A DNA stretch of 41,560 bases from Holosporaceae bacterium. Lineage in GTDB: Bacteria; Pseudomonadota; Alphaproteobacteria; UBA3830. The stretch is taken from contig JAITBT010000068.1 in assembly GCA_031283445.1 (NCBI GenBank), positions 1-41,560 on the forward strand. The letters are read 5' to 3'. Under the pieces are notes generated by a model, which searched no databases, was not told the origin of the DNA, and saw only the letters and a program-made list of their open reading frames with translations. The stretch's first letter is position 1, and every line of letters starts with the position of its first letter. The position numbers were made by a program, and so were the translations under genes. Positions 9,357-19,949 of this stretch are shown piece after piece.

Positions 9357-9887
9357 TTAAAAGAAATTCCTGATATAAACATACATTATTTTATGCAATT
9401 CTTTAATACATCGCCAAACAAAACCTAGACAGAAACGGGATTTGACACCACAGGAATGTATTTGCAAAGAACTATTAATCGCCTTTAGCTCCATTATGCT
9501 TCTGGGAATGTGATAGTCCGATGTGATTAAGAGAATTTCCAATATATTATTATGGATCACCCATTCGTTAATTTCCAATGCGTTTTCTCGCGTATTTCTA
9601 GCTTGTTTCCCTAAAAAAAAATTTACGCCTTCCTTACTTCCCTCGGGCAAAATATCACGTAATATAGTTTTTTCGTAAACACCAGATATGAAAATATTTT
9701 TAGGTTCGTGGGATTTTAGCAATTGAATAGCACGAGCTATGCGGTTAGGTCCTCCTGTCAGTACAACTATATTCTCTATTGATGATTCATATTTATGCTC
9801 GTATAAAATTATATACAATATAAAAACAAACACAGCCCCTACCCAGCAGGCTATTGCTACGCTCAAAAATTTTCTCACGAATTTCAT
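9357..9887 (-). CDS. YdcF/ElyC-like DUF218 membrane protein
   Basis: The 176-aa protein has one N-terminal membrane helix (about residues 8-29) followed by a DUF218 domain: NIVVLTGGPNRIARAIQLL, KNIFISGV, ARNTRENALE, and LLITSDYHIPRSIMEL, the conserved blocks of the SanA/YdcF/ElyC family. Members are linked to envelope integrity and undecaprenyl-phosphate metabolism in enterobacteria; the reaction is not established, so the role here is inferred. Its ATG overlaps the ftsX stop (TAATG), giving translational coupling. This ftsE-ftsX-DUF218-plsC order is, to my knowledge, common in alphaproteobacteria. Confidence 0.85.
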   Translation of the reverse strand: MKFVRKFLSVAIACWVGAVFVFILYIILYEHKYESSIENIVVLTGGPNRIARAIQLLKSHEPKNIFISGVYEKTILRDILPEGSKEGVNFFLGKQARNTRENALEINEWVIHNNILEILLITSDYHIPRSIMELKAINSSLQIHSCGVKSRFCLGFVWRCIKELHKIMYVYIRNFF

Positions 9888-10783
9888 TAATTAGTCCATT
9901 TATCATTTTTTAGGAAAAACAAGACTGCTTTCTTCGAGGTAATTATTATTAACATTGTAGCTGTGAGTGGAACTATAATAACGGATAACGCATATCTAAA
10001 AATATCCGGATGAAGTATTCTATCTGCATATATAAAAAATATTCCCACGATTGTAATAATACTACCTAAAACCGAAATTAAAGATGACTTGCAACCAACT
10101 ATAAAATAATACCATCTAAATTGGGATGCTATATAGAAATTATTTGCTCCGACTAGTTGTAAAATTTTTACAGTATTTCTGTGAATGCTCAACGCTTTTT
10201 TGGTGATAAAAATCATTGTTGCGCAAACTGTGATAAAAATCAGTAGAGATAAAACAATAGCAAAACTAAATAACCCATTGCTGATTTTTACCAGAGTAGC
10301 ATACCAATTAGCGTGATCATGTATTTTCACACTTTTGGAAACTTTCGATAACTTTTCCAACAATACCGGAATGTCTACTTTAGTATTTTTTTCCGTTTCA
10401 ACGTCAAAAATCGAAGGGAAAGGAAAGTCATCCGGGATTGCTGTGCTACTCAACCACGGCTCAAGTATTTCTAAAATGTCCGTTTCCTGGAGTTTTTTTA
10501 CGAACTTTATTCCCTCCGTTGATTTTATAATTTCCATGATTTTTTCATTTTGTCCTTCTGTAAGAATTTCATCAACTCCATTAATATTGGATTGAAATTC
10601 AATTGTAATATGACCATTCAGTGCATTTTTCCAACCAGAGGTTAGGTTATAGATAAAAATGCTACTCATTATTGAGATGGTTGCCGTGTACATCAAGAAT
10701 CCTACGATGATGGGCACAAACCTATTCGATTTATCGCTAAAAAAATCAAAATCATAATCTCGATTAAAATTAAAAAAACTCAT
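9887..10783 (-). CDS. ftsX: Cell division protein FtsX (ABC permease)
   Basis: Membrane partner of FtsE; the complex controls septal peptidoglycan hydrolysis through a periplasmic activator such as EnvC. The product of about 298 aa has a membrane segment near the N-terminus (FVPIIVGFLMYTATISIMSS), an extracytoplasmic domain of roughly 110 residues, then three C-terminal helices, the four-helix FtsX plan. I chose the ATG at 10783-10781 (MSFFNFN), which overlaps ftsE by 14 nt and has GGGA upstream; an ATG seven codons earlier (10804) is possible but lacks a ribosome site. envC is present at 18921. Confidence 0.92.
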   Translation of the reverse strand: MSFFNFNRDYDFDFFSDKSNRFVPIIVGFLMYTATISIMSSIFIYNLTSGWKNALNGHITIEFQSNINGVDEILTEGQNEKIMEIIKSTEGIKFVKKLQETDILEILEPWLSSTAIPDDFPFPSIFDVETEKNTKVDIPVLLEKLSKVSKSVKIHDHANWYATLVKISNGLFSFAIVLSLLIFITVCATMIFITKKALSIHRNTVKILQLVGANNFYIASQFRWYYFIVGCKSSLISVLGSIITIVGIFFIYADRILHPDIFRYALSVIIVPLTATMLIIITSKKAVLFFLKNDKWTN

Positions 10784-11480
10784 TATTTTGTATCCCATTT
10801 TCATAATTTCTGTCGATTATGTGACCATTACTAATATGGAGTTCATTATAATGAAATTTATCCACAAACTGTCTGTAATGGGTGGCTACAATTACACAGG
10901 TACCAGTCTTATGCATACCATAAAATAGCCTCATCAATTTATGGGCAATTTTCTCATCAACATTTCCTGTTGGCTCGTCTGCTAACAGAATATCTGGCTG
11001 CGCGATGACAGCTCTTGCGATAGCTATTCTTTGCTTTTGTCCACCCGATAGGATATGCGGCTGCACATTAACGCAATTTCCTAAACCAACCCATTCCAGA
11101 ATTTCCTTCGCCTGGTGCTCTCGACGCTTTTTTTCTTCTCCCATGATCTTGAGCGGTAATGCGACATTTTCCAGTACCGTAAGATGGTTCAAAAGATTAA
11201 AGTCCTGGAATACTACTCCCATCCGTCGCCTTAATTTGCATTGATCCTCCGGCGATATATTGGAAATATCTCTACCAAAAATCTTTATATTTCCGGAGAA
11301 ATGTTTGATACCCATGTAGAGCAAACGCATCAGTGTCGTTTTTCCGGCACCGCTCGCCCCCGTTAGGAAATGGAACGATTTTCTATATAAAGACAACGAA
11401 ATATCCCGAAGAACCGGCGCTCCGTCCTCATAGGTAAGCATAACCTTCTCCAGCGAAATAATTGGCTCTTCCTTAGACAT
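10770..11480 (-). CDS. ftsE: Cell division ATP-binding protein FtsE
   Basis: ABC ATPase of the FtsEX complex at the septum. The 236-aa protein has Walker A GASGAGKTTLMRLL, the Q-loop VVFQDFNLL, the signature LSGGQKQRIAIARA, and Walker B ILLADEPTGNVD, with ATHYRQFVDKF giving the switch His. Length is usual for FtsE (~225 aa). GGAGAG sits just before the ATG. It follows the response-regulator gene by 45 nt on the same strand and overlaps ftsX. Confidence 0.96.
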   Translation of the reverse strand: MSKEEPIISLEKVMLTYEDGAPVLRDISLSLYRKSFHFLTGASGAGKTTLMRLLYMGIKHFSGNIKIFGRDISNISPEDQCKLRRRMGVVFQDFNLLNHLTVLENVALPLKIMGEEKKRREHQAKEILEWVGLGNCVNVQPHILSGGQKQRIAIARAVIAQPDILLADEPTGNVDEKIAHKLMRLFYGMHKTGTCVIVATHYRQFVDKFHYNELHISNGHIIDRNYENGIQNNEFF

Positions 11481-11525
11481 GTTCTCTCCACAACACTATA
11501 TTCTCTGCAGGAGACGCCTAGTGTA

Positions 11526-12527
11526 TCAATACAGATTGCCGGATGGATGTTTCCGAAACTTATCAAAACTCTTAATACTATCGAAGTCCAGATCCAGAGA
11601 TTCGGCTCCGGCAAACGTAAAATAATAGATCTGATAGCCTTCCAGTTTGCTGGCTGGTCTAATATAATACTCCCATTCATTTATGGGTGGTAGCTGACCT
11701 GAACAATTATGTGAGACTAGCATATATTCTCTTGATTCCAATCCCTTTAAAGCTTCAGTGGAAATCTCCCCGGATTCTTTTCCTATTTCTATGATTCTAC
11801 TCATCTCATATTCTGTCAAAACACTTAGAAGACTAGGCTCACCGCTGGAGCTCAGAAATAAATACCCCCCAAAAACATCAAGCATGTAATACTCGATATA
11901 ATCTTTCTTCGAACAGATACCGGAAAAAAAATTCGAGAAAACTGGATCCTGCAGATGGGTCTTATCATAAACAGAAAGATGCTTGAATATGTCATTCGCA
12001 TGATTTTTAAAAAACTGATATATAGACTTAATTATGCCTTCCTTTATCCCCTCTACAAAAGTATTCCTTCCTTTTCTAATATAGCGATTAATCTCACCAT
12101 TGTTGAAAGCGTCTATGGCTACTTTATCTTCGGCATTACCGGTCAGTAATATTTTTTGAATATTGGAATCGCTGATGCTGGCGCAAATCTCGACGCCATT
12201 TGTTCCGGGCATGGCATGATCCACAACCACCGTCGATATTATAGAGAATCTGTCTCCATTATAGATTTCCTGATGCAGATAATTAATATTCAGCGCTATA
12301 CATTTCCAATCCGATGTACTCTCTTCACTACCTTTGGTTAGATCAGCATAATTCAAGCGATTCCATGCTGCTGACTCATTTACGTACTTCAATGCTTCGA
12401 GCTGATTTGAAAACTTTATGATAGTAATTCCCGGAATCAAACTCATCATACTTTCTTCCAGGCTATTCAAAAAACCAACATTGTCATCTATCAAAACAAC
12501 CGTAGTGGGGAAAAAACAGCTCAGCAC
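11526..12527 (-). CDS. Atypical response regulator with unrecognised C-terminal domain
   Basis: The 333-aa protein starts with GTG (12527-12525), preceded by GAGG five bases upstream. Residues 9-150 form a receiver domain: acidic pair D14-D15 (VVLIDDN), phospho-acceptor D103 (VVVDHAMPGTNGVEIC), conserved Thr in ILLTGNAED, and Lys in NRYIRKG. The distance from the acidic pair to D103 is about 88 residues instead of about 40, so there is an insertion of roughly 45 residues (about 50-95). After the receiver, a linker helix leads to about 160 residues I do not recognise, with a conserved-looking YYMLDVFGGYLFLSSSGEP strand pair. No helix-turn-helix, GGDEF, EAL or kinase motif was seen. No histidine kinase gene is nearby. 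Its position 45 nt before ftsE suggests co-transcription with cell-division genes; function is unknown. Confidence 0.75.
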   Translation of the reverse strand: MLSCFFPTTVVLIDDNVGFLNSLEESMMSLIPGITIIKFSNQLEALKYVNESAAWNRLNYADLTKGSEESTSDWKCIALNINYLHQEIYNGDRFSIISTVVVDHAMPGTNGVEICASISDSNIQKILLTGNAEDKVAIDAFNNGEINRYIRKGRNTFVEGIKEGIIKSIYQFFKNHANDIFKHLSVYDKTHLQDPVFSNFFSGICSKKDYIEYYMLDVFGGYLFLSSSGEPSLLSVLTEYEMSRIIEIGKESGEISTEALKGLESREYMLVSHNCSGQLPPINEWEYYIRPASKLEGYQIYYFTFAGAESLDLDFDSIKSFDKFRKHPSGNLY

Positions 12528-18920: not shown

Positions 18921-19949
18921 CTAATCTTCTCCTTTTTTTTCTTTTGTTTCTGGCAACCATCGATGTGGATCAAGAGATTCACCAAGCTTTTTTACTTCAA
19001 TTTTTATTATTGGACAATTTTCTTCATTCATTTTTCCAACATAATCTCCAATTTCTACTATGTCTCCGATCTTGGAAAAAAGAGTATCCACTCCGTATAA
19101 GTATACTCTATATTCACCACTGCTGATGATTAGTATATTTCCGTGATTTAAAAATTTTCCAGAGAATACAACTAAACCTTTGGCCGGAGAAGTTACTAGA
19201 GCTTTGGGATGCGTTTCAATAGCGATATAGCATGTTATGTCTCCATTTGCATCTTTATCTCCAAATTCTTTTACAACCTTCCCAACGACCGGGTAGGTAA
19301 GAGCTAAATCCGTAGCTTTTTGGGTGTTTTTTAGTACTCCGACCACATTCTCCGCTTCCAGCTCTGCGTCCAATTCCTCTAAAGATTCTGATCTTGTTGC
19401 CAAATGTTGAGCAACATCATTTTGAATTATATTCTCTTCCCGTGTGCGAGATAGTTCCAGTGCCTTATTTTCTATTTCTTTCGACAACTTTTCATGTTCT
19501 GCTATTATTGTTACGAGTTCATGGACCTTTTTTTGTTTTTTCTTTTTTAGTTTTGCTATTTCTGCTTTATTCTTTTTCAATTGAGTACTAATGTATCTGA
19601 AATACAAAGCGAAGTTTTTAATAACAACTGAGCATTTTATGAAATCATTTCTATTATCCACCTGGTTCAAAACCAATAAATCCGAAAAACGCTGTATATC
19701 TAATAAGACAGTAAAACATCTTGTAATGATTTCATAGATATTTCGAATAATGGGAGAAGAAATCTTCTCTCCCCGACTAATGCAATCTATCTCTGATTGT
19801 AACTCTTCAATTTTTTTTTCAAGCTCTTGTCCTTTCTGGCAGAGCTCTCGCATTTCCTGTGGCACAGATTCCGGTCTTTTAGAGCCAGCTGCGATACTAT
19901 ATGAAACAATAGAAAAAAATAATATCGAAGCTAATGAGCATTTATTCAT
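18921..19949 (-). CDS. envC: Murein hydrolase activator EnvC-like protein
   Basis: The 342-aa product has a signal peptide (MNKCSLASILFFSIVSYSIAA), a long coiled coil (about 35-215, rich in Glu and Lys), and a C-terminal LytM/M23-like domain (about 230-335: VTSPAKGLVVFSGKFLNHGNILII, EYRVYLYGVDTLF, GESLDPHRWLP). The zinc ligands of active M23 enzymes are missing: no HxxxD, and the late HxH is replaced by IIKIEVK. This matches EnvC, which activates amidases and does not cut itself. FtsEX, its known partner, is encoded at 9887-11480. The start overlaps the ugd stop (ATGA), and ctpA follows 2 nt later. Confidence 0.9.
   Translation of the reverse strand: MNKCSLASILFFSIVSYSIAAGSKRPESVPQEMRELCQKGQELEKKIEELQSEIDCISRGEKISSPIIRNIYEIITRCFTVLLDIQRFSDLLVLNQVDNRNDFIKCSVVIKNFALYFRYISTQLKKNKAEIAKLKKKKQKKVHELVTIIAEHEKLSKEIENKALELSRTREENIIQNDVAQHLATRSESLEELDAELEAENVVGVLKNTQKATDLALTYPVVGKVVKEFGDKDANGDITCYIAIETHPKALVTSPAKGLVVFSGKFLNHGNILIISSGEYRVYLYGVDTLFSKIGDIVEIGDYVGKMNEENCPIIKIEVKKLGESLDPHRWLPETKEKKGED

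Follow-up and report, generated by a model that had tools for sequence, protein, structure and literature searches.

The window, by which we mean the whole stretch of 41,560 nucleotides that was analysed, comes from a Holosporaceae genome available as a 94% complete draft (78 contigs, 932 kb; G000 in the following). On its minus strand, positions 11526 to 12527 hold an uninterrupted open reading frame of 333 codons, which begins with GTG and carries GAGG 5 nt upstream of this start. Related genes were found in 34 other Holosporaceae genomes (35 of the 41 genomes of the family in total), and homologues with 46–66% identity are spread across the family. This rules out chance and leaves no doubt that the reading frame is a gene; close relatives in GTDB are metagenome-assembled Holosporaceae. 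The features of the locus are as follows:

11526..12527, minus strand: gene for the 333-aa response regulator of the LqsR family, beginning with GTG (phmmer aligns it over its full length with LqsR, 6sy9; LqsR is the top match of Foldseek and VIA-align)
11976..12527, minus strand: receiver domain, residues 1–184, with D14/D15, D103, T129, Y149 and K152 (conservation; CheY-fold matches in the PDB)
12228..12395, minus strand: LqsR-type receiver extension between alpha2 and beta3, residues 45–100 (length as in LqsR and similar in relatives; pLDDT)
11529..11975, minus strand: LqsR-type output domain, residues 185–333 (domain modelled alone: LqsR at Z 11.6, next match at Z 4.6)
11481..11525, minus strand: 45-nt intergenic gap between the regulator gene and ftsE, without a terminator-like site on this strand
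10770..11480, minus strand: ftsE (top NCBIfam match TIGR02673 with 253.1 bits, slightly under the cut-off of 264.85)
9887..10804, minus strand: ftsX-like permease gene overlapping ftsE, named from its position and the conserved gene order (no Pfam or NCBIfam match to FtsX)

Receiver and output domain

The initial annotation had reported a complete set of receiver residues and an unusually long distance between the acidic pair and the phospho-acceptor, and both observations hold. D14/D15, D103, T129 and K152 are all present and conserved in the family alignments: D15, D103, T129 and K152 are invariant among 29 family sequences, with D14 nearly so, and the same four residues do not vary in a broader set of 18 sequences including LqsR, where position 149 is either Tyr or Phe. 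With these residues in place the phospho-acceptor site looks able to accept phosphate. The spacing from D15 to D103 amounts to 87 residues, exactly as in LqsR, and the distance between acid pair and acceptor ranges from 73 to 86 residues in 16 other members that we compared. The long spacing is a feature of the LqsR family itself. The extension carries a conserved LHxEIYxxxRFS segment and is partly disordered in the AlphaFold model (pLDDT below 50 for residues 65–78). Of the receiver, Pfam recognises only the second half.

We compared the protein to known structures at the level of both sequence and fold. Among PDB sequences, phmmer identified LqsR of Legionella pneumophila (6sy9) with an E-value of 1.3e-45 and a collinear alignment over residues 3–325 of 333; the matches that followed were to receiver domains alone. 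A model of the whole protein was built from 29 sequences (pLDDT 83, pTM 0.80). LqsR was the first match in Foldseek (E 2.4e-26, TM 0.79/0.86) and in VIA-align (Z 30.5, 298 residues, rmsd 2.8 Å); about 31% of the residues are identical when the structures are aligned. As the other leading matches cover the receiver part, which resembles CheY-fold structures, the output domain was also modelled alone from residue 180 (pLDDT 80). Here LqsR was again recovered (E 1.7e-8; Z 11.6, 149 residues aligned, rmsd 3.5) and no other structure exceeded Z 4.6. Kinase N-lobe-like matches at Z 4.6 or less belong to the common noise of the tool and were not used. The output domain had been described as unrecognised and as part of an undescribed module. 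This claim is refuted by the very comparison on which it was staked: both the C-terminal domain and the long spacing in the receiver match LqsR, which belongs to a known family. There is thus next to no chance that the protein represents a new class of response regulator, even though neither Pfam nor NCBIfam matches its output domain.

The gene is a Holosporaceae orthologue in the LqsR/PhcX response regulator family. The kind of protein is known; its setting beside ftsEX is new. For this family a structure has been solved and genetics are available (PMC3376566, PMC10653808). LqsR binds two kinases, LqsS and LqsT, and phosphorylation of its D108 leads to dimerisation (PMC5289986). Its output domain is putatively nucleotide-binding (PMC11237717) and was reported to contain a five-stranded sheet like that of PleD, a GGDEF response regulator, with a degenerate GGDEF pattern; diguanylate cyclase activity was undetected in vitro (PMC10653808). 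Unlike PleD, the regulator has neither a GG[DE][DE]F motif (its sole GG lies in FGGYLFL, consensus FGSYLFL) nor a Pfam GGDEF match, and its genome encodes a separate PleD (C15). A likeness to PleD or GGDEF domains is absent among the fold-search matches listed, which does not in itself exclude one.

Linkage to ftsEX

In the window the regulator gene lies 45 nt upstream of ftsE and is co-directional with it, as initially described. An FtsE orthologue was found in 36 of the 41 family genomes at E < 1e-60, and we then compared the positions of both genes over 36 regulator loci in 35 genomes. One genome (G007) has two regulator copies (C131 and C33), only one of which is beside ftsE while the other has a stop codon near its end; with a listed contamination of 7% for this bin, the two copies may come from two strains. 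The genes are adjacent in 19 of the 36 loci and in five of six genera, and hence the association is better supported than a single sequence could indicate. At 14 loci (genera g1, g3, g4 and g6) ftsE is directly downstream on the same strand, and the gaps measured at six co-directional loci range from 23 to 51 nt. The remaining five adjacent loci all belong to genus g5 and show the two genes in divergent orientation, which makes a shared transcript impossible there. For the other 17 loci adjacency was not seen: in 14 cases ftsE is on another contig, which is not always proof of separation since some contigs end close to the regulator, and in 3 cases no ftsE was found. A scan for consensus promoters carried no usable signal (9 found, 5.3 expected) and was set aside.

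The co-directional order also occurs in the genome that branches first in the Holosporaceae clade (G016). The linkage is therefore probably ancestral, and the regulator and ftsE were probably already adjacent in the ancestor of the family. The order downstream is kept as well: ftsE and ftsX are followed usually by ydcF, then by plsC and prfA and in most cases by prmC, so that the regulator is recurrently the first gene of this run. The upstream flank differs among G000, G016, g3, G019 and G025, with transaldolase-like and miaB-like genes on the opposite strand in the window, a SurA-like gene in G016 and a ClpA-like AAA+ gene in g3. The names ydcF, plsC, prfA, prmC, miaB and transaldolase were given by sequence reading and not by profile search. 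In g5 a protein of 662–674 aa is encoded directly downstream of the regulator (L112:5537-7561 and L113:10571-12559), and the L112 copy is without a Pfam match. About 8 kb from ftsX, the minus strand of the window (18921–19949) encodes an EnvC-like protein with a coiled coil and an M23 domain; beside it lies a CtpA-like protease gene, recognised by reading only.

There are two alternative ways to explain this arrangement. The adjacency could be inherited gene order without functional coupling, with the regulator acting as a stand-alone global regulator. We regard this as a serious possibility, though one we would bet against. The downstream run includes the housekeeping genes plsC, prfA and prmC, and given their presence the neighbourhood of ftsE may carry no functional meaning; several genera also have members without visible linkage. 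However, the junction with ftsE stays in place while the upstream flank changes among the five groups named above, and the adjacency survived the inversion in g5.

In the other explanation, which we consider unlikely, the regulator would be a dedicated regulatory partner of FtsEX, whose phosphorylation state directly tunes the FtsE ATPase or the FtsEX-driven activation of a hydrolase. An LqsR-type regulator captured from quorum sensing would then have become a phosphorylation-dependent FtsEX controller that passes a two-component signal directly on to septal cell-wall splitting. Adjacency in five of six genera, kept after the g5 inversion, is in line with this, as is the M23-domain EnvC-like protein encoded in the window. 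Yet roughly half of the loci lack the linkage or do not show it, and both LqsR and PhcX are global regulators described in lqs or phc neighbourhoods (PMC5289986, PMC10653808).

Apparent loss of the quorum-sensing partners

We searched about 400 genomes across the phylum and found relatives of the regulator in 22, most of them outside the class or partial receiver matches. The Holosporaceae proteins form one clade (support 100/98) and group with other alphaproteobacterial members (98/94). In G385 and G233, both from outside the class, the regulator has two notable neighbours, a member of one histidine-kinase cluster and an alpha-hydroxyketone synthase gene scoring over the NF005526 cut-off; these gene clusters recur in G221, arranged likewise. 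A published survey counted 310 representative proteobacterial genomes with orthologues of PhcX, the LqsR-family regulator of Ralstonia, including 16 from Alphaproteobacteria; the orthologues are mostly clustered with lqsA and lqsS (PMC10653808).

The 94% complete draft G000 differs in this respect. Neither the NF005526 profile nor an outgroup LqsA matched it, and queries for the LqsS-type sensor domain from both the outgroup and the family also gave no match there. In 14 other family genomes the outgroup LqsA produced weak matches (20–28%), which may be BioF-type enzymes. An LqsS-like sensor domain is present in 15 of the 41 family genomes; in both cases that we read, it showed no linkage to the regulator. 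In one genome (G015, L128:4291-8341) such a kinase, unlinked to the regulator, is encoded beside two genes that appear to be sodium:solute symporter-like by reading only. In another alphaproteobacterium (G400, L121:5140-8864) a fusion of a sodium:solute symporter and a histidine kinase overlaps the start of an LqsR-family gene by 4 nt, which suggests a transporter-type sensor as partner.

The regulator might still belong to an alpha-hydroxyketone circuit and sense the signals of neighbours through an unlinked LqsS-like kinase. The 15 genomes with the sensor domain and its unlinked position would fit such a circuit, but lqsA was not found in G000, and apart from G004 and G007 the regulator-bearing genomes of its genus are without the sensor, as is G000 itself. 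We thus find this quite improbable. The two settings are also different: LqsR is part of a lqsA-lqsR-hdeD-lqsS cluster and answers LAI-1 via LqsS and LqsT, whereas the regulator neighbours ftsEX. A parallel is PhcX of Ralstonia solanacearum, which was retained although lqsA was lost and came to lie next to unrelated genes, and Ralstonia has been argued to have decoupled its regulator from Lqs (PMC10653808). PhcX adjoins the phc quorum-sensing genes, however, and the regulator adjoins ftsEX, in Alphaproteobacteria.

Proposed role and candidate kinases

Our preferred reading is that the gene encodes a phosphorylation-controlled dimer of the LqsR type that is expressed together with ftsEX and no longer coupled to alpha-hydroxyketone quorum sensing (probability roughly 0.75). 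A histidine kinase encoded elsewhere in the genome would phosphorylate D103. By analogy with LqsR this would cause dimerisation and a change in the output domain, which may act through a bound partner or nucleotide rather than by binding DNA directly. Transcription running on into ftsEX would tie the level of the regulator to that of the division machinery, and its most likely role would be that of a switch for growth phase or the timing of division during a life cycle in association with a host. In Legionella and Ralstonia, growth-phase and virulence switches are under the control of LqsR-family regulators. A large clade keeps the regulator in genomes of about 1 Mb, largely without quorum-sensing genes and often beside ftsEX. 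This pattern suggests that the output function has a use even where alpha-hydroxyketone signalling is lacking, and points to cell division as a place to seek this function.

Several kinases could serve as the partner of the regulator. G000 keeps CckA, CtrA, NtrY and a PleD with a GGDEF domain, and further kinases are found in C77 (two), C59, C56 and C44; any of its kinases could be the partner. One candidate was the conserved PAS-HisKA kinase of C77, whose orthologue is only a few genes away from the regulator in G015, G020 and G019. In other genomes it is on other contigs; it occurs in 37 of 41 genomes, several of them without the regulator, and was left unassigned. An apparent fusion of kinase and regulator in L089/L090 was dropped as Pfam identified no kinase domain. 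The reduced genome G000 thereby retains a Caulobacter-type cell-cycle set (C10, C45, C32 and C15; L036, L047, L038 and L053), made up of CckA, CtrA, the PleD, NtrY and, next to PleD, a DivK-like single receiver assigned by reading only.
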